This document shows, piece by piece, positions 5,249 through 48,955 of a stretch of DNA of 64,000 nucleotides (positions are counted from its first letter, which is position 1; each line of letters starts with the position of its first letter). A program made the translations under genes and the position numbers. The stretch covers positions 62,001-126,000 of the IMG/VR virus record IMGVR_UViG_3300035670_000028. One strand, given 5' to 3'. Under the pieces are notes generated by a model. The model made no database searches and was not told the origin of the DNA. It saw only the letters and a program-made list of their open reading frames with translations. The DNA comes from a virus.

Positions 5249-5442
5249 GAGTATCTAGAGAACAGTTCGATATGATCCGTGAAGTGCTAGCACTCCTGCG
5301 AGAGAAGCTACCAGGAGATACTGAGTACAAGTTGGCGCTCAGCCCAATCTGGGCCATCGAGAGGCCACCTCCTGAGCCCCACGAGTTTTCCAGACATATT
5401 TCTATCAATGGCTGTGTGCTGGAGGTGGAGGAGAAGAAATGA
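5245..5442 (+). CDS. Hypothetical protein
   Basis: 65 residues. A helical N-terminus (REQFDMIREVLALLREKL) is followed by a Pro-rich segment and a beta strand (SINGCVLEVEE). It overlaps its neighbours by four bases at both ends, with GAGGAG upstream. Unknown function. Confidence 0.5.
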   Translation: MRVSREQFDMIREVLALLREKLPGDTEYKLALSPIWAIERPPPEPHEFSRHISINGCVLEVEEKK

Positions 5443-5726
5443 ACGCTGATCAGATCGCTGGCATGCTCGTGCTTGGAGTTCCCTTCCTGCTCACACTCAT
5501 CTTCCTCATCTGGCTCTACGGGGAGAAGCGCAGGGATAGGCTCCGCGCGCAGAGGAGCGAGGAGCTCAGGCGGGAGGTGCAGGCACTCCACAATAGCGCC
5601 CTCGATCTCAAGGATTACCTCACCAGCAAGCGGGTTTTCTTCATCGATCTAGACAGATGGGATCCTGAGGCAGCGGAGCAGATCATCGAGATCGCGCGCG
5701 AGATACAGAGGAGTGATAAGAAGTGA
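5439..5726 (+). CDS. Single-pass membrane protein with coiled coil
   Basis: 95 residues. One transmembrane helix at about residues 8-26 (MLVLGVPFLLTLIFLIWLY) is followed by a strongly charged cytoplasmic-type coiled coil (RRDRLRAQRSEELRREVQ). A membrane-anchored accessory protein is likely, and an Rz-like role cannot be excluded. It overlaps both neighbours. Confidence 0.6.
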   Translation: MNADQIAGMLVLGVPFLLTLIFLIWLYGEKRRDRLRAQRSEELRREVQALHNSALDLKDYLTSKRVFFIDLDRWDPEAAEQIIEIAREIQRSDKK

Positions 5727-5929
5727 GAGTGTATGCTACTACAGATGAGGGCAGGAGGTTCCTGCACTCGATTCGCTGTGATGGGCCCGGGTGCGAATCC
5801 GAGATCAAGCCCAATCCTAACATCTCCCAATCCGGTTGGGTGTGGTATGGGCAGGATCACGGCCCAGGCACCACGAGATTAGAATGGGATCACTGCCCAG
5901 ATTGCGATCGGAGAAGAAGTGCCCATTGA
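5723..5929 (+). CDS. Small zinc-ribbon-like protein
   Basis: 68 residues. The pattern CDGPGC ... HCPDC gives two Cys pairs for one zinc. It starts at GTG overlapping the previous stop, and its end overlaps the next GTG. Unknown role. Confidence 0.5.
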   Translation: MRVYATTDEGRRFLHSIRCDGPGCESEIKPNPNISQSGWVWYGQDHGPGTTRLEWDHCPDCDRRRSAH

Positions 5930-6182
5930 GGTGTTAGGCCGCGATCACGAGGGAAGGGTTAGCTCCCAGCCCCCCATCAAGAGTGGCCCGAACCGCGGGC
6001 GGAGGAGGAGCGAGCCCAGGGGTGTTTGGGTGCCGGCAAGTGGCTACGCTTACGAGGAGCGGCAGGATGCCAAGTGTGCCCACTCTGGCTGGATCAAGGC
6101 AGTGCAGGAGCTAGGCCACCGGGTGGGATCCTGGGATTGCGATGGAGTGCGAAACTACTACGTGTTCAGGGAGGCGAGATGA
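5919..6182 (+). CDS. Hypothetical protein
   Basis: 87 residues from a GTG that overlaps the upstream gene by 11 bases. Basic and Gly-rich N-terminus, then AKCAHSGWIKAVQELGHRVGSWDC and NYYVFREA. Not recognised. Confidence 0.45.
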   Translation: MPIEVLGRDHEGRVSSQPPIKSGPNRGRRRSEPRGVWVPASGYAYEERQDAKCAHSGWIKAVQELGHRVGSWDCDGVRNYYVFREAR

Positions 6183-6397
6183 GGGAGAGCTGGAAGCAGA
6201 AGTATGATGAGCTATTCCGTATGTTGGAGAGCTACATCAAGCGGCTTCATACCGCCGAAGAAGAGAATAAGAGGCTCAAGGAGGCGCTGCATAAGATTGC
6301 AGATTGTAATTGCCCTCTTGTAGAAAATGAATATGGATACACCTCAGAACTTTCAGAGTGCCGCATGATCGCGAAGGCTGCGCTGAAGAGTGCATGA
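6179..6397 (+). CDS. Small coiled-coil protein
   Basis: 72 residues. Residues 1-45 form a strong heptad coiled coil (YDELFRMLESYIKRLHTAEEENKRLKEALHKI), followed by a Cys-containing tail (CNCPLVENEYGYTSELSECR). ATG 6179 overlaps the upstream stop. Confidence 0.55.
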   Translation: MRESWKQKYDELFRMLESYIKRLHTAEEENKRLKEALHKIADCNCPLVENEYGYTSELSECRMIAKAALKSA

Positions 6398-19822: not shown

Positions 19823-20242
19823 ATGGCAAAGCTGAATGAGTCAAAGATCGTTGAGGCCATGCGCCTCGCCTATCTCCGGAGGCTCCACGAGGTGATCGGT
19901 GAGACCGACGTGAAGGACAAGAGGGGTAATGTGGTGATCTCTCCCGGTCTCAAGGTCCGTCACAAGAAGTCACAGTTCGAGTACACTGTGTCATCTGTGA
20001 AGGAGGATCCGAAGTCAGGCGACGTGGTGATCACTCTCAAGAGCCCTGAGATGCCGCGTTTCACGCCTTCCGGTGGGCAGGAGTTCGTGGGCGAGGAGAC
20101 ACCTCTACTGACAGGCGCCGCTCCTACCTCGGGTCACGATGAGGAGCTCGCAGCAATGGCTCAGCCGGACGCTGTCGAGGGCGAGGAGACCGTCTTCATG
20201 GTGGATGAGAAGGAGTTCAAGAAGGACTACGAGGTGAAGTGA
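19823..20242 (+). CDS. Tag-bearing protein with KOW-like segment
   Basis: 139 residues. The N-terminus KLNE|SKIVEAMRLAYLRRLHE|V is a tag-type helix with two (L)xE sites. GLKVRHKKSQFEYTVSSVKED and VVITLKSPE look like a small barrel. A Glu/Asp-rich tail follows. It directly follows the scaffold-like gene and overlaps the next gene. Confidence 0.6.
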   Translation: MAKLNESKIVEAMRLAYLRRLHEVIGETDVKDKRGNVVISPGLKVRHKKSQFEYTVSSVKEDPKSGDVVITLKSPEMPRFTPSGGQEFVGEETPLLTGAAPTSGHDEELAAMAQPDAVEGEETVFMVDEKEFKKDYEVK

Positions 20243-20937
20243 TGCACATCGACGACGACATCAAGAAGGAGATCCGCCGCTCCCTAGGCCTTCCGGAGCG
20301 GAGGGCAGAGTCAAAGATCAATGAGGCGTACGTTGTTGAGCCCAAGTCCTACACGCTCAAGACCGACTTCCTGAGCGACAAGGCGAAGAAGGCCCGCATC
20401 GACGACTTCAGCGCGAACGCCAAGTCACTAAACGCTGTGAGCGCGAAGCTGGACACCGCCTCAAGGGACGATGCGGACGACCGCTCCTCGGAGTTCAGGT
20501 CGCTCAAGGTCGACGAGGCGCACTGCCTCAATGAGGCCTTCCTCAGGGCGCGCCACTTCGACAACATCGACGATCCCAGGAGCCAGATCTCCATGGACAC
20601 ACTTTCCTTCATGCGCCTCGAGCGGGACTTCGGCGGATTCGACGCGTGGCAGAAGGACTTCATAGCCTGCGGCATGTCGGCACGCAGTGGTTACGTTGTG
20701 ACCGCCTACAACATCCTGCTCGGCAGGTACATGAACCTCGTGGTCGACGCGGGAGGCTGCAACATACCGATCGGATGCATGCCCATCGTTGTTCTCGACG
20801 TCTCAGAGGGCGCGTACTACCGGGACTACATCGGTGATCGCAAGACCTACATCATCGCAATGATGAAGGAGCTCAACTGGGACGTCATCGAGGAGCGCGT
20901 CAAGAAGGCTGAGAGGATCGCGAAGGTGATGGCATGA
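20242..20937 (+). CDS. Superoxide-dismutase-fold protein with altered metal site, tag-bearing
   Basis: 231 residues. After a basic helix and KINE|AYVV, the body follows Fe/Mn superoxide dismutase: HCLNEAFLRARHF, GFDAWQKDFIACG, then VLDVSEGAYYRDYIGDRKTY and LNWDVIEERV. In the enzyme the last signature is DVWEHAYYLDY. Here the Asp is kept but the metal-ligand His is Gly, so normal catalysis is doubtful. It sits among head proteins, so a structural or cargo use of the fold is likely. ATG 20242 overlaps the previous TGA. Confidence 0.65.
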   Translation: MHIDDDIKKEIRRSLGLPERRAESKINEAYVVEPKSYTLKTDFLSDKAKKARIDDFSANAKSLNAVSAKLDTASRDDADDRSSEFRSLKVDEAHCLNEAFLRARHFDNIDDPRSQISMDTLSFMRLERDFGGFDAWQKDFIACGMSARSGYVVTAYNILLGRYMNLVVDAGGCNIPIGCMPIVVLDVSEGAYYRDYIGDRKTYIIAMMKELNWDVIEERVKKAERIAKVMA

Positions 20938-30998: not shown

Positions 30999-32279
30999 AT
31001 GAACGAGAGGCAGCTAAGAGGTGTGATACGACAGATTCTGCATGAGCAGAAAAGTCGAAGGACTCTTCTAGAGTACGGAGACGATGGCGATGGCGATGGC
31101 GGTGCACTCTATAAAGCATTTGTATCTCCATTTGTTGATGTCCTTCAGGCAACTAAACTCGCGAGTCAAGGCATTCTCAACTCGATCAAGCTTGTTTTTA
31201 AGACACTAATCACGCTAAGTCCAAAGAAGCTTGTTGAGGCTCGAAATGACTACACAAAAGTCAAAGACACTCTAGACAAGGAATGGGGGCCTCTCATGAA
31301 GAAGGCCAGAGACTCTGTCGAGAACAGCGACTTTGGTCTTGTCACATTTGCAGTTGCTCCGAATCTATTTTTCGGGTATCAGCTTGCAAAGTTTGGAGCT
31401 GACGCGCCAGGAACCGTTGTTGATTATTTTGAGGGTGCTGGGTGGGACGTTCCTCTGGGTGAGTGGATAAGAAAGACACCCGATGAGAGAGACTCAAGTG
31501 GTAGAGGCGGAGGAGGACGTGACGATGATGAAAGTGAGGGTGGCATAATGAAGTCCCTCCGAACGTTCTTCTTTGGTGAGGGTGTTAGTAGCAAGATTGG
31601 ACCTGACGGAAGACTGCTAAGCGAGGCAGAAGAGGATGAGAAAAAGCAAGACAAATCAGGCCTCTCTAAGTCCAACATCAATGAGAAGATTAACGAATAC
31701 TTTGCAGAGACGGGCTTCGATAAGACGCTCGATGATCTAGCCGATCAGTTTGTGAAAGCAAAGCAAAATCACGCTGATAAGCTTGTTGCAGCCTCTAAGC
31801 AGCAGACAGACACTCTCAAGGCATTCGCAGCTGCGAAGGACATCCCTGAGTTCGAGAAGGTTATTGAGTCCTCAAAGAAGCTCGGCGCTGATGTCTCAGA
31901 AATACAGAAGAAAATTGATGAGCTCAAGAGAGACATCACAAAGAAGTCTGAGGATCTGCTCGAAGATCCAAAGTTCAAGGAAGACATCAAGAAGAAAGCA
32001 AAGGGAAAAGAGCTTTCAGATGCCGACATGAAAAAGGCTACAGAAAATGCAGCAGCTAAGGCTGCTGAAGAGGCCATTGGTGAGCTCAAGAAAAGCGTGA
32101 GTGATGCCCTTAAAGAGTCATTCGACCAGATAAAAAAGCAGATACGAGATGAGCTGACAGATGACATGCCAGATCAAAAGAGCCCATTCTACAAGGCATT
32201 TGCCGCATCACCTCGCGGTAAAGAGATTCTTGCAATAGTCGATAAAGCAGTCAACTCTGTGGGTCCCACCGGTGGATGA
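30999..32279 (+). CDS. Tag-bearing internal head protein
   Basis: 426 residues. MNERQLRGVIRQILHE|QKSRRTLLE|YGDD has the tag and two sites, and GRLLSE|AEEDEK occurs near residue 210. The N-terminal half is globular with hydrophobic segments (TLITLSP, VTFAVAPNLFFGY). The C-terminal half is a long Lys/Glu/Asp coiled-coil region. A multi-site internal protein cut during head maturation is the best inference. Confidence 0.65.
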   Translation: MNERQLRGVIRQILHEQKSRRTLLEYGDDGDGDGGALYKAFVSPFVDVLQATKLASQGILNSIKLVFKTLITLSPKKLVEARNDYTKVKDTLDKEWGPLMKKARDSVENSDFGLVTFAVAPNLFFGYQLAKFGADAPGTVVDYFEGAGWDVPLGEWIRKTPDERDSSGRGGGGRDDDESEGGIMKSLRTFFFGEGVSSKIGPDGRLLSEAEEDEKKQDKSGLSKSNINEKINEYFAETGFDKTLDDLADQFVKAKQNHADKLVAASKQQTDTLKAFAAAKDIPEFEKVIESSKKLGADVSEIQKKIDELKRDITKKSEDLLEDPKFKEDIKKKAKGKELSDADMKKATENAAAKAAEEAIGELKKSVSDALKESFDQIKKQIRDELTDDMPDQKSPFYKAFAASPRGKEILAIVDKAVNSVGPTGG

Positions 32280-36464: not shown

Positions 36465-36659
36465 ATGACAGCTCGTAAGCCGGTGAGTGACCGGGATCTT
36501 GTATCACTTAGACAGCGCGGCCTGATCCTCGCTGAAGAGACTGCTTTCTGGCAGGACGGCGTTCTAACAGTAGAAAACCTTATCAATAAGCAGCAGAGGC
36601 TACTGACAGTCGATGTCAGCACTCTACTAGAGTCAAATAGAAGGGTGCTAAAGGGCTGA
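36465..36659 (+). CDS. Small protein upstream of GroEL
   Basis: 64 residues, mostly helical (DRDLVSLRQRGLILAEETAFWQDGVLTVENLINKQQRLL). ACGGAGG precedes ATG 36465, and its stop overlaps the chaperonin ATG. It is not a GroES by sequence: no mobile-loop or barrel pattern is visible. Function unknown. Confidence 0.6.
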   Translation: MTARKPVSDRDLVSLRQRGLILAEETAFWQDGVLTVENLINKQQRLLTVDVSTLLESNRRVLKG

Positions 36660-38296
36660 TGACTGCATTTAAGAACCTCACGTTCGGGGATGAGGCCCGA
36701 GAGAAGATCCAGCGTGGCGTCAATATTCTCTCCGACGCTGTGAAGGTCACAATGGGTCCTCGAGGCCGCAACGTGATCATCGAGAGGGAGTCTGGCCCAC
36801 CGCACCTGACGAAGGACGGCGTGACAGTCGCCCAGGCAATCGACCTCAGGGACAGGTTCGAGAATCTCGGAGCGCAGATGGTGAAGGAGGCCGCACAGCG
36901 GAGCGCCGAGATCGCAGGCGACGGCACCACGACCTCCACAGTCCTCGCCCAGGAGATCTACAACGAGGGCCTCAAGATGATCTCTGCGGGATTCGAGCAG
37001 TCAGAGGTGTGCAAGGGCATCACGGACGCCGCGGCCGCCGTGATTCAGTCCGTGTCAGAGATCTCACGCCCCATTGTGAGCGATGAGGACATCGTGCACG
37101 TCGGAACAATTTCCGCCAACGGGGACCGAGAGATCGGTGAGCTCATTGCTCGGGCCCTGTCATCGGTGGGTCGTGATGGCACGGTCACTGTCGAGGAGGC
37201 GAAGGGATTTGAGTCGACCCTCGACGTGGTCGACGGCACCCAGATTCCGCGCGGCTACCTCTCACCCTACTTCGTCACCAACCACGACAAGCTCCTGTGC
37301 GAGCTCGACAACCCGTACATCATTCTCGTCAACAAGACCATTTCCTCCATCAAGGAGCTGCTCCCGTTGCTCGAGCGCCTGCACAATGAGAAGCGATCTG
37401 CCCTTCTCATATCTGACGACCTCGACGCCGAGGCACTGCAGGCACTTGCTGTCAATAAGTTGAAGGGCATCCTGTCCATCTGCGCAATCAAGGCCCCGGA
37501 GTTTGGGGACACGCGGGTCCACACGTTCGACGACCTGTCGCTTCTCACCGGCGCGTCTGTGATCAATGCAGCGACACTTGACTCAGGCAAGGCATTTGAC
37601 ACACTCACACTCACCGCCTGCAAGAAGGCCATTGTCACCAAGACGTCGACTACGCTAGTGGGCTGCAAGCCACCCAGCGCCGACCTCCTCACAGAGCGTG
37701 TGAAGTCCCTCAGGGAGAAGCTCAGCGACCCCTCGCTGCAGGGTCCAGAGAGGGAAGTGACGCAGCGTCGGCTCTCAAGGATATCCGGAGGAGTCGCTGT
37801 GCTTCGTGTCGGTGGATCCACGGAGATTGAACTGAAGGAGCGCAAGGACAGGGTCGATGACGCACTCCACGCAACCCAGGCTGCAATCGAGGAGGGCATT
37901 GTTCCTGGTGGTGGAACTGCCTTGATCCGCGCCTCGAAGTGCTTGGATAAGCTTGTACAAAGGGATGAGGACAGCTACAATTGTGGAGTTAGAATCATGA
38001 GGACAGCGTGTGAGGCTCCCATGAGGCAGATTATTCTTAACTCCGGCGTGTCACCAGACATTATTCTGGAGCGTGTAAAGAAGATGAAGGGAAGCCAGGG
38101 CTATGACGCTCGAGGCGAGACATACAAGGACCTGATCGCTGTGGGAATCATTGATCCCACGAAGGTCGTCAAGTCAGCTGTGAAGCACGCAGCTTCCGTT
38201 GCGTGCAACCTTCTGTCCATCGGTGCTGCTGTCACTTACGATGTGAGAGAAGCTTCTGACGACATGTCACAAGATAGTTCGCTTTTGTTCGGTTAA
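36659..38296 (+). CDS. groEL: Chaperonin GroEL (Cpn60)
   Basis: 545 residues, full family length. KVTMGPRGRNVIIE and HLTKDGVTVAQAI form the nucleotide pocket, AGDGTTTSTVLA carries the ATPase Asp, and GGGTALIRA is the late signature. It lacks the GGM-type C-terminal tail and shows many substitutions (e.g. CKGITDAAAAVI). Phage GroELs can fold capsid proteins without host help; no GroES gene is seen in the window, so it may work alone or borrow the host lid. Confidence 0.93.
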   Translation: MTAFKNLTFGDEAREKIQRGVNILSDAVKVTMGPRGRNVIIERESGPPHLTKDGVTVAQAIDLRDRFENLGAQMVKEAAQRSAEIAGDGTTTSTVLAQEIYNEGLKMISAGFEQSEVCKGITDAAAAVIQSVSEISRPIVSDEDIVHVGTISANGDREIGELIARALSSVGRDGTVTVEEAKGFESTLDVVDGTQIPRGYLSPYFVTNHDKLLCELDNPYIILVNKTISSIKELLPLLERLHNEKRSALLISDDLDAEALQALAVNKLKGILSICAIKAPEFGDTRVHTFDDLSLLTGASVINAATLDSGKAFDTLTLTACKKAIVTKTSTTLVGCKPPSADLLTERVKSLREKLSDPSLQGPEREVTQRRLSRISGGVAVLRVGGSTEIELKERKDRVDDALHATQAAIEEGIVPGGGTALIRASKCLDKLVQRDEDSYNCGVRIMRTACEAPMRQIILNSGVSPDIILERVKKMKGSQGYDARGETYKDLIAVGIIDPTKVVKSAVKHAASVACNLLSIGAAVTYDVREASDDMSQDSSLLFG

Positions 38297-45068: not shown

Positions 45069-45386
45069 ATGGCAGGATCTGATAGCACAAACGCACCTGG
45101 GCGTCCATGGACGATTGTAGGCACATTCTCAACGTACGAGGCTGCTTCCGCAAAGGCAGCCCAGCACAAGGGCCCGAGGAACGTCGAGGTGAAGATCAAG
45201 AAGCTGTCGACAGGCTTCACGGTTCGAACTCGTCAGGAGGAGCGTGCGGCATCTCCTGTTCATCAGGAGTCCGCGCCCTCAGGCGCAGTGAAGAAGACCA
45301 AGATGAAGGCGAAGGAGCGGCGTGCTCTGGAGCGCAGCGCCAGCGCTGAGGACTCTCTTGATTCGCCTGCTGAAAAAACTTCCTAA
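45069..45386 (+). CDS. Small SPOR-like/charged protein
   Basis: 105 residues. WTIVGTFSTYEAASAKAAQHKGPRNVEVKIKKLSTGFTVRTR has the beta-alpha-beta look of small SPOR-like folds, followed by a basic disordered tail. GAAGGAGG precedes the ATG. Its last 65 bases overlap tilS in another frame. Confidence 0.5.
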   Translation: MAGSDSTNAPGRPWTIVGTFSTYEAASAKAAQHKGPRNVEVKIKKLSTGFTVRTRQEERAASPVHQESAPSGAVKKTKMKAKERRALERSASAEDSLDSPAEKTS

Positions 45387-45966
45387 CACCGTATACGTGG
45401 CAGTGTCAGGTGGTGTTGACTCGATGGCAGCACTTGACTTCGCCCGCCGCGGCAAGCGGGCAGTTCACGTGCTTCACTTCGACCACGGCACAAAACACGG
45501 CTCCGAGGCGAGAAAGTTCATCGAGGCGTACTGCTCATCGGAGCGTATTCCTCTGACAATCTCATCACTGCAGCGTCCCAGGGATCCCAGTGAGTCACTA
45601 GAGGAGTACTGGCGCAATGAGAGGATCAGGTTCTTTAGGGAGCACACTGACGCTCCGATTGTGACAGCGCACCACTTGGACGATGCAGTTGAGTGGTGGA
45701 TCTTCACCTCTCTTCACGGATCGCCTAGGCTCATGTCGTACAGTAATGACGCGACGGGTGTGATCAGGCCCTTCCTCGCGACGCCAAAGGACGAGCTTGT
45801 CTCGTGGTGTGAGAGGAAGGGTGTGCCGCACGTGAGCGATCCCAGCAATGAGTCGAGAAATCACAGCAGGAATAGGATTCGTCACGATATTGTGCCGCAT
45901 GCCCTCGTAGTCAATCCTGGGCTTCGGACTGTAATCAAGAAGAAGATTGTGGAGGAGCTAGGATGA
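45322..45966 (+). CDS. tilS: tRNA(Ile)-lysidine synthetase-like (TilS N-terminal domain)
   Basis: 214 residues. PP-loop VAVSGGVDSMAAL, HFDHGTKHGSEARKFIEAYC, IVTAHHLDDAVEWW and the TilS-diagnostic DPSNESRNHSRNRIRHDIVP are all conserved. TilS converts C34 of a CAU-anticodon tRNA to lysidine so that it reads AUA. The C-terminal domains of full-length TilS are absent, so the enzyme is minimal. It starts at a GTG with AAGGAGCG, inside the previous gene. A CAU-anticodon tRNA is encoded 1.9 kb downstream. Confidence 0.85.
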   Translation: MLWSAAPALRTLLIRLLKKLPNTVYVAVSGGVDSMAALDFARRGKRAVHVLHFDHGTKHGSEARKFIEAYCSSERIPLTISSLQRPRDPSESLEEYWRNERIRFFREHTDAPIVTAHHLDDAVEWWIFTSLHGSPRLMSYSNDATGVIRPFLATPKDELVSWCERKGVPHVSDPSNESRNHSRNRIRHDIVPHALVVNPGLRTVIKKKIVEELG

Positions 45967-46271
45967 CTGACAAGAAGATATTCTATATTGTTGAGGCATT
46001 GCGGTGGGGTGATCGCGAGAGTCACTCATACATTGTTGGACTGTACAGTGAGCTCGACCGTGCGAAAGCCGCAGCCGATGCGCACTCAGAGTACCGCGGA
46101 GGTAAGTACTCTTGCCAGGTGTTCCAGTGCGCTGTTGATGAGGAAGTTGACACTGACTGGAATGCGTCACTTCTGTATGAGTCCAAGTGTGCATTTGAGA
46201 TAGACAAGGACGCAGCAGACTTCAGGTCAATTCTTGAGACGCTCTCAAAGCGTGCAAAGGAGCGCCAGTGA
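45963..46271 (+). CDS. Hypothetical protein (DUF7336-like pattern)
   Basis: 102 residues. KIFYIVEALRWGDRESHSYIVGLYSELDRAKAAADAHSEYRGGKYSCQVFQCAVDE has the small alpha/beta pattern found in uncharacterised phage proteins of this kind. ATG overlaps the tilS stop; the last codons overlap the next GTG. Confidence 0.5.
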   Translation: MTDKKIFYIVEALRWGDRESHSYIVGLYSELDRAKAAADAHSEYRGGKYSCQVFQCAVDEEVDTDWNASLLYESKCAFEIDKDAADFRSILETLSKRAKERQ

Positions 46272-46723: not shown

Positions 46724-46812
46724 AGAGGGGTGCGTGAGTGGTTGAAACGGCGGCACTGGAAATGCCGTGTGCCCGCAAAAGGGCACCGGAGGTTCGAATC
46801 CTCTCCTCTCTG
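46724..46812 (+). tRNA. tRNA-Ser(GGA)
   Basis: 89 bases. Acceptor AGAGGGG pairs with CCTCTCT. D stem CGT/ACG; anticodon stem CGGCA/TGCCG with loop CTGGAAA (anticodon GGA at 46758-46760, reading UCC/UCU). The long variable arm TGCCC/GGGCA marks a class II tRNA, and the T loop is TTCGAAT. Discriminator G, no encoded CCA. Confidence 0.92.
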
Positions 46813-47654: not shown

Positions 47655-47781
47655 GATGAGGAGCTCGATCGAGCTCACAGTGATCCTCACCATTGTCCTC
47701 ACCACATGTCAGTTTGTGTACGAGAAGATGTGGCGCGCGTTCTTGGTGGATAGGCTGAAAAAGGTTCTAAAGAAATTGTAA
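47563..47781 (+). CDS. DUF2061-type membrane protein
   Basis: 72 residues. LLMIKVFLWRLVSIPISAIATYVYTGEMRSSIELTVILTIVLTTCQFVYEKMW matches the DUF2061 layout of two membrane helices with a conserved Lys/Trp-rich edge. AAGGAGG precedes ATG 47563. Found in bacteria and phages, function unknown. Confidence 0.65.
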   Translation: MNNRLLMIKVFLWRLVSIPISAIATYVYTGEMRSSIELTVILTIVLTTCQFVYEKMWRAFLVDRLKKVLKKL

Positions 47782-47804
47782 AGACACCTGACGCAATCTA
47801 TAAT
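47777..47804 (+). promoter_or_regulatory. TGTAAA-16-TATAAT promoter
   Basis: TGTAAA at 47777-47782 and TATAAT at 47799-47804. It drives the CAU-anticodon tRNA and probably the GMPR/IMPDH-like gene. Confidence 0.7.
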
Positions 47805-47817
47805 ATAAACATACTTC

Positions 47818-47900
47818 GGGCCGTTGGCGGAATTGGTCAAACGCAGTCGCCTCATAAGCGATCGCCTTCGGGTTTGGGGGTTCGAGTCCCTCACGGCCTA
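47818..47900 (+). tRNA. Class II, Leu-like tRNA with CAU anticodon
   Basis: 83 bases. Acceptor GGGCCGT/ACGGCCT, D stem GCG/CGC with a Leu-type D loop (AATTGGTC). Anticodon stem GTCGC/GCGAT with loop CTCATAA: U33 precedes CAU at 47853-47855. The 13-base variable arm has a CC-UUCG-GG hairpin. T loop TTCGAGT, discriminator A, no CCA. The body looks like tRNA-Leu, but the anticodon is CAU, as in tRNA-Met and tRNA-Ile2. With TilS encoded nearby it could carry lysidine and read AUA; the amino acid it carries is uncertain. Confidence 0.88.
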
Positions 47901-47920
47901 CTAATTGTTGATTGAAAGAT

Positions 47921-48955
47921 ATGGAAACAGCTCTAAGTTTTGATGATGTGTTGCTGCTGCCGCAGCACTCCGATATCGCGCACAGGGGAGACATTGACAT
48001 CAGCGTCGACCTCAAGAGATTCGGAAAGATTCGAAGCCCCATCATCTCCTCACCGATGGACACGGTGACAGGTGGACGTCTAGCAAAGATGATGTGGCAC
48101 TTGGGAGGCCTAGGCATCATTCACCGCTACAACTCAGTGACATCACAGTGCGATGAGGTGGATACTGCCTGCACTACTTCAGGTGTCTCAAATCCCACAC
48201 ACCACTGCGGTGCTGCTGTGGGTGTGACAGGCGACTACCTTGAGCGCGCTGTGAGGCTTGTTGAGAAGGGCGCGTGCCTCATTTGCGTCGATGTCGCACA
48301 CGGCGACCACTCACAGGTGGTGTACGCAGTCGAGAGAATCCGCAAGGAAGTGGGAAGCAGAGTCCACATCATGGCGGGCAATGTGGCGACTCGAGAGGGA
48401 TTTGACCTGCTTGTCAGGTCGGGCGCGGACAGTGTTCGTGTTGGAATTGGCGGCGGATCGATCTGCAGCACACGCACACAGACAGGTCACGGCGCACCGA
48501 CCCTGTGGTCCATCATTGAGTGCGCGAAGTCGGAGAACTCAGGCGAGGCAGCCATCATCGCAGACGGCGGCATTAAGACATCAGGTGACGCTGTCAAAGC
48601 TCTCGCGGCAGGAGCTGATGCTGTCATGCTGGGATCAATGCTGTCTGGAACTGATGAGACTCCGGGCGATCCTGTCTGGATGAACCTGCGGTCCTACAAG
48701 AAGTACAGGGGCATGGCCTCAGTGGAGGCACAGGTTTCCTGGAGGGGACACGCAGCCTCAGAGGAGGGTGTCACTGCATGGGTGCCCTGCAAGGGTCCGC
48801 TTCACGAGGTGCTCGGATCGATCGAGCGTGGAATTCGTAGCGGCCTCTCCTATTCCGGAGCAGTCAGCATCGCAAACCTGCAGGCAAAGGCGAAGTTTAT
48901 GAGAATCACGCCTGCAGGTATACTAGAGAGCACTACACACATCAACAACATCTGA
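47921..48955 (+). CDS. GMP reductase / IMP dehydrogenase family enzyme
   Basis: 344 residues. [54 protein letters not shown] (catalytic Cys) and [27 protein letters not shown] are all family motifs. CBS domains are absent, and the length equals bacterial GMP reductase; the tail [12 protein letters not shown]...[10 protein letters not shown] also resembles GuaC. GMP reductase returns GMP to IMP. GuaB without CBS domains is the alternative. ATG 47921 preferred over TTG 47912. Confidence 0.85.

Follow-up and report, generated by a model that had tools for sequence, protein, structure and literature searches.

Bacterial isoleucine tRNAs are expected to belong to class I, the short form. Among them, tRNA-Ile2, which depends on the chromosomally encoded tRNA(Ile)-lysidine synthetase TilS and inserts isoleucine at AUA, combines a CAU anticodon in a CUCAUAA loop with A73. 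Lysidine at position 34 blocks methionyl-tRNA synthetase (MetRS) and promotes charging by isoleucyl-tRNA synthetase (IleRS) (PMC9976931). The gene considered here lies at 47818–47900 (plus strand) of a 64,000-nucleotide stretch of viral DNA (the window, bases 62001–126000 of the 147,186-base virus record IMGVR_UViG_3300035670_000028). It encodes a tRNA with the same anticodon, loop and A73, for which TilS dependence is predicted and in whose phage AUA likewise appears to stand for isoleucine. Unlike bacterial tRNA-Ile2, this tRNA has a class II, Leu-type body with a long variable arm, and both the tRNA and the enzyme are encoded by the phage. We interpret it, with a probability of about 0.76, as a class II tRNA-Ile2 whose C34 would be converted to lysidine by the phage TilS and which would be charged with isoleucine, aiding the translation of late genes rich in AUA; we infer both the modification and the charging from sequence.

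The described TilS enzymes of types I and II (E. coli MesJ, 1ni5; Geobacillus, 3a2k; Aquifex, 1wy5/2e21) share with the phage proteins the fold, the PP-loop motif SGGxDS and the motifs HHxxD..E and DxSN...RN.IRH, but the phage enzymes are 195–241 amino acids long and lack both C-terminal domains (CTD1 and CTD2). In cellular TilS, the C-terminal domains touch the tRNA and discriminate tRNA-Ile2 from tRNA-Met (PMC12514573). Phage TilS is known from Pseudomonas phages MIJ3 and PA5oct (PMC6892783) and from pelagimyophages (PMC7029224), with no tested role given; the authors of the MIJ3 study speculated that it keeps the host viable (PMC6892783). The MIJ3 and PA5oct proteins belong to the same family of small, catalytic-domain-only enzymes (mini-TilS) as the window protein, which is 44% identical to that of PA5oct, but their partner CAU tRNAs are of class I. 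According to a review (PMC13191261), a T4-like vibriophage tRNA(CAU) was shown to carry lysidine-34; the review suggests host enzymes as the modifiers and, in the passages concerned, mentions neither a phage TilS nor a class II body. Phage tRNA-Leu(UAA) resembles the window tRNA in its class II body, D arm, G1·U72 and A73 but differs in the anticodon and in having A rather than a pyrimidine at position 20a. In the open-access literature (subscription papers and preprints set aside), we found no description of a class II tRNA-Ile2, of a phage module of tilS and tRNA(CAU), or of a TilS consisting of the catalytic domain only, and no earlier report that links a phage TilS with class II tRNAs.

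The tRNA gene and the phage TilS

ARAGORN reports a tRNA at 47818–47901 with the anticodon CAT at gene position 36, and the Rfam covariance model RF00005 matches 47818–47900 with 54.2 bits (E = 6.9e-9). A covariance-model search had been proposed in an earlier sequence-only reading of the window, and its outcome, together with the arm structure, bears out that reading's description of the tRNA body as Leu-like and class II, carrying CAU and A73. The acceptor, D, anticodon and T stems are all complete. The acceptor stem (GGGCCGT/ACGGCCT) has seven pairs, the first of them the G1·U72 wobble, and is followed by the D arm, GCG-GAATTGGTCAAA-CGC. The anticodon arm, GTCGC-CTCATAA-GCGAT, permits a single register, as had also been claimed, and places C34, A35 and U36 at 47853–47855 (plus strand) in both the ARAGORN call and the Rfam alignment, C34 being the proposed lysidine site. 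A variable arm of 13 nucleotides (CGCCTTCGGGTTT) makes the molecule class II, the T arm is GGGGG-TTCGAGT-CCCTC, and CCA is not encoded. As in tRNA-Ile2, A37 and A38 accompany the CAU anticodon; the short variable arm of class I is absent, and the anticodon is none of those of tRNA-Leu (NAG or YAA). Because of its 13-nucleotide variable arm, we name the tRNA a class II variant that would work like tRNA-Ile2, not an ordinary member of that type. Its body is of the Leu type, probably of the Leu(UAA) kind with G1·U72. The class II CAU pattern has one match in the window and none in 100 shuffled versions, and this tRNA is the sole CAU tRNA on its 147-kb contig.

A first search for relatives with the window protein encoded at 30999–32276 gave no matches, and in a blastn comparison with annotated phages the region had short weak matches only. 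Two phages of the same group, L001 and L003, carry the same CAU tRNA in the same neighbourhood, beside a tRNA-Ser(GGA), which in the window lies at 46724–46812 (plus strand); the 147-kb contig of the window has no tRNAs beyond these two. L001 and L003 are both syntenic with the window genes, and the encoded proteins are mostly 45–90% identical. The stem changes among the three tRNAs all keep pairing (7–66 T-A to G-C, 50–64 G·T to T-A, 27–43 G·T to G-C and 5–68 C-G to T·G; two of these pairs are changed on both sides), and the anticodon loop and the variable arm are identical in all three. We conclude that the CAU tRNA gene is maintained and does not reflect a chance fold.

The open reading frame (ORF) at 45322–45966, 1.85 kb upstream of the CAU tRNA on the same (plus) strand, encodes a protein of 214 amino acids (start codon uncertain) that is a member of the TilS family and a predicted lysidine synthetase. 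It matches PF01171 (E = 3.9e-34) and the TilS equivalog domain TIGR02432 (117.4 bits, cut-off 93.6); a sequence search of PDB returned three TilS structures and no other matches, and the AlphaFold model (predicted local distance difference test score 92.5) has TilS structures as its top Foldseek matches. On the rankings by TIGR02432, by PDB sequence and by fold, we rejected an assignment of the PF01171 match to TtcA or another PP-loop enzyme; each of the five phage proteins tested exceeded the TIGR02432 cut-off, and TtcA was far under its cut-off. Across 38 phage TilS proteins, the PP-loop, HHxxD..E and RN.IR motifs vary little or not at all, the invariant residues being S29, G30, G31, D33, S34, R101, H117, D121, E124, N176, R183, N184 and R187. 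The protein stops after the catalytic domain, with neither CTD1 nor CTD2, and a Pfam search of the next ORF (45963–46271) gave no match. The sequence-only reading had asked whether C34 is modified to lysidine, which was the right key question, and the presence of a phage TilS upstream on the same strand supports that branch; it had missed the enzyme itself and the recurrent arrangement of tilS with CAU tRNAs.

Recurrence of mini-tilS with CAU tRNAs and origins of the class II form

A viral scan with seven mini-TilS proteins found relatives on at least 574 contigs, of which the best 80 (L029–L108) were retained. Members of the family consist of the catalytic domain alone. A CAU tRNA is present at 36 of these 80 loci, often 6–65 bp from tilS, and the usual partner is a class I CAU tRNA with an Ile2-like D arm. 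Among 61 distinct tilS genes, 18 of the 31 tRNAs within 200 bp of tilS have the CAU anticodon, as against 8 of the 133 tRNAs farther off (Fisher p = 3.6e-10). In an independent slice of 16 larger contigs, from phages sharing the tail sheath, tilS occurs on two, and CAU tRNAs were found on those two alone. These data point to a recurrent, widespread and little-studied phage module for AUA reading, composed of tilS and a CAU tRNA.

For one mini-TilS clade, with 15 members, the fetched sequence contains no CAU tRNA, which suggests service to the host tRNA-Ile2. At five loci (L033, L042, L044, L045 and L052) a tRNA-Leu(UAA) with G1·U72 lies 42–78 bp downstream of mini-tilS, and no CAU tRNA was seen; the Leu-type bodies of the class II CAU tRNAs may derive from such tRNAs.

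The phages in which TilS accompanies a class II CAU tRNA are the window group, L036/L038/L119, L037, L008/L018 and the 284-kb phage of L014. When the scans took no account of TilS, intact Leu-like class II CAU tRNAs came up in five phage lineages, and in four of these the contig with the tRNA also bears TilS. Mapped on a tree built from 68 phage TilS proteins, the class II state requires four changes, at least three of them forced by well-supported branches, and the class II partners nest among class I ones (the window and L003 with L030; L036 and L037 with L050). The class II tRNA has thus taken over from class I beside tilS in at least three lineages, and probably in four or more. The class II tRNA of L037 and the class I tRNA of L050 have identical acceptor and T arms and different cores. 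In L036, about 1 kb of AT-rich DNA (5260–6290) separates the class II tRNA from tilS; in its near-identical sister L037 the tRNA lies 14 bp before tilS, and the stretch in L036 is a probable insertion.

A further group of phages (L006, L007, L009, L010, L012, L013, L015, L016 and L017) has a class II CAU tRNA with a C1×A72 mismatch and A73 (for example, L006 7532–7620, minus strand). These phages encode up to 45 tRNAs, in some cases including a CUA tRNA, and in most of them a class I CAU tRNA lies about 0.8 kb from the class II one. No TilS was found on their contigs of 205–362 kb, and their class II CAU tRNAs are a separate case from the tilS-linked ones. Pattern matches in L002, L004, L005 and L118 were degenerate, oddly arranged or not clearly of the Leu-type class II form and were not counted. 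The element in L004 (about 5850–5965, minus strand) has the order T arm, acceptor 3' strand, TTCG, acceptor 5' strand, D arm and CAU anticodon arm, an arrangement that suggests either a remnant of a tRNA or a Leu-like tRNA in circularly permuted form.

In cellular genomes, the scans covered Leu-type D loops in two spacings, leaving out the L036 and L037 types. The Leu-type class II CAU pattern, which does match phage loci, had no match in about 85,000 genomes. The single cellular match to the second-spacing pattern, in Bacillus timonensis, falls inside a coding gene at a place with no tRNA and was dismissed as chance.

Reading of AUA and identity of the tRNA

The sequence-only reading had proposed that a leucylated CAU tRNA could recode AUA or AUG to leucine. 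We recorded, for each codon of the window phage, the residues found at aligned positions in other phages. In close relatives, the 31 AUA sites correspond to isoleucine at a frequency of 0.73, valine at 0.13 and leucine at less than 0.01; as controls, true leucine codons correspond to leucine at 0.64–0.80 and AUG to methionine at 0.64. In the structural and virion genes, compared with up to 79 relatives, 38 AUA sites give isoleucine 0.38, valine 0.16 and leucine 0.14. AUC and AUU in the same genes give isoleucine 0.41–0.45 and leucine 0.12–0.14, and leucine codons give leucine mostly at 0.47–0.53. The AUA columns thus match those of isoleucine codons, not of leucine or methionine, and we conclude that AUA is isoleucine, with no recoding visible.

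The window tRNA keeps the Leu elements A73, A15-U48 and G18G19 but has lost A20a, reported to be essential for leucylation in E. coli (PMC9976931): position 20a is C in the window and L001 and U in L003. Of 34 phage Leu tRNAs, whose sequences are not fully independent of one another, 32 have A at this position; none of the five tilS-linked class II CAU lineages does. All four of the E. coli TilS/IleRS elements (C4-G69, C5-G68, C29-G41 and A73) are found in the window tRNA; the 5–68 pair is U·G in L001 and L003, and the other class II lineages have less than the full set. C29-G41 and C4-G69 are minor Ile elements in E. coli (PMC9976931). On this comparison, the window tRNA has lost the element A20a of leucyl-tRNA synthetase (LeuRS) and gained an Ile-like Y20a and C29-G41, together with C4-G69 in the window lineage.

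AUA is also unevenly distributed among the phage genes. Annotated tail genes use it for 41 of their 200 isoleucine codons, and replication and nucleotide genes for 4 of their 244 (p = 1e-11); DnaE has none among 68, and large tail-region genes have up to 36 of 81 (the window and L109–L113). In the proposed scheme, the CAU tRNA would be transcribed with C34, which would be converted to lysidine by the phage mini-TilS and possibly by the host TilS too. Lysidine-34 would shift codon reading from AUG to AUA, block MetRS and recruit IleRS, and isoleucine would be delivered to AUA codons, which this phage has chiefly in its large tail and virion genes. The late, AUA-rich virion genes may profit most from the added tRNA-Ile2 and TilS.

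We favour the class II tRNA-Ile2 because TilS is co-encoded, the tRNA is the sole CAU tRNA on the contig and mini-tilS is associated with CAU tRNAs elsewhere, and also because class II forms arose repeatedly beside TilS, AUA is isoleucine, A20a has been lost and AUA is biased towards tail genes. Several observations weigh against it. L014 has U73, and C4-G69 and C29-G41 are not common to all class II lineages. The tRNA and mini-tilS of the window, 1.85 kb apart, are not adjacent, and for 44 of the 80 mini-tilS loci no CAU tRNA lies within the sequence fetched, so mini-TilS may additionally serve the host tRNA-Ile2. Some leucylation is possible too, since bacterial LeuRS does not read the anticodon (PMC9976931) and A73, A15-U48 and G18G19 persist. 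Those same features, with the class II Leu-type body, favour the alternative that the lysidinylated tRNA is charged wholly or partly by LeuRS, AUA being leucine or ambiguous in the infected cell. The near-absence of leucine from AUA columns in close relatives and the lack of A20a in all five lineages make this quite unlikely, and the AUA profile in virion genes equals that of AUC and AUU, with which low-level ambiguity is still compatible. An extension of the class II tRNA-Ile2 reading, which we regard as unlikely, is that the class II tRNA and mini-TilS act as an orthogonal pair: in place of the missing C-terminal domains, the long variable arm would serve as the recognition handle, host tRNA-Met would be spared and the tRNA would evade host control or anticodon nucleases, with residual LeuRS charging making AUA ambiguous between isoleucine and leucine in late virion proteins.

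With C34 unmodified, the molecule would serve as an extra elongator methionine tRNA for AUG. CAU is the main identity element of MetRS, and tRNA-Val given this anticodon is charged by MetRS as well as tRNA-Met (PMC9976931); such a role, very unlikely in our view, would leave unexplained both the co-encoded TilS and the tight association of mini-tilS with CAU tRNAs, and the phage AUG sites are ordinary methionine sites. That the gene is a pseudo-tRNA or a decoy that takes no part in decoding, for instance one aimed at a host defence that cuts tRNAs, is highly improbable. Phages can use tRNAs to counter defences that target tRNA (discussed in PMC10865867), and CCA is not encoded, but a decoy would not need the pairing with TilS, and neither the compensatory stem changes and the invariant anticodon loop across relatives nor the roughly four independent class II origins beside TilS fit this idea; for the decoy role suggested by the sequence-only reading we found no supporting evidence. 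An initiator-like identity was first suggested by the weak 1:72 pairs of several class II CAU tRNAs (G1·U72 in three lineages, C1×A72 in a fourth group). We dropped it as extremely improbable since phage Leu tRNAs often have G1·U72 (23 of 36 class II and 10 of 11 shorter calls); in addition, the window tRNA has GTCGC/GCGAT in place of a G29-31:C39-41 stem, and its 1:72 pair is a wobble, not a mismatch. Isoleucine charging after lysidine formation is thus the outcome that the comparisons best support. The sequence-only reading had said that this would make the tRNA an ordinary decoding aid, a description that its class II body and phage-borne enzyme do not fit.

Genome context and implications

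A promoter-like site, TTGTAA-17 nt-TATAAT (47776–47804, plus strand; 10 of 12 matches in a consensus scan), ends 13 nucleotides 5' of the CAU tRNA. None was seen at the L001 tRNA, so expression of the gene is no more than suggested. The window encodes DNA polymerase III alpha, a GroEL-like chaperonin, DNA ligase and IMP dehydrogenase, and two tail-sheath genes in the rest of the record identify the virus as a myovirus-like tailed phage. These adjacent paralogues (L109 7330–10437 and 10484–13540) have AUA at 10 of 50 and 2 of 45 isoleucine codons. Host-like genes lie at 36659–38296, 47912–48955 and 20239–20937 of the window and at 2549–3148 of L111 (GroEL-like chaperonin, IMP dehydrogenase, Fe/Mn superoxide dismutase domain and Clp protease). 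The IMP dehydrogenase gene is directly 3' of the CAU tRNA in the window and is not at that place in L001 and L003.

If the class II tRNA-Ile2 reading is true, class II bodies have assumed the role of tRNA-Ile2 several times, each time in a phage with a stripped-down TilS. Such phages would offer natural experiments on how CAU tRNAs are sorted by TilS, IleRS, LeuRS and MetRS. The mini-TilS would provide a minimal lysidine synthetase for biochemistry, which is open to test because the same family occurs in the cultured Pseudomonas phages PA5oct and MIJ3, with their class I partners. More broadly, phages may possess a widespread route of AUA reading that annotation programs mask under the label 'tRNA-Met'.
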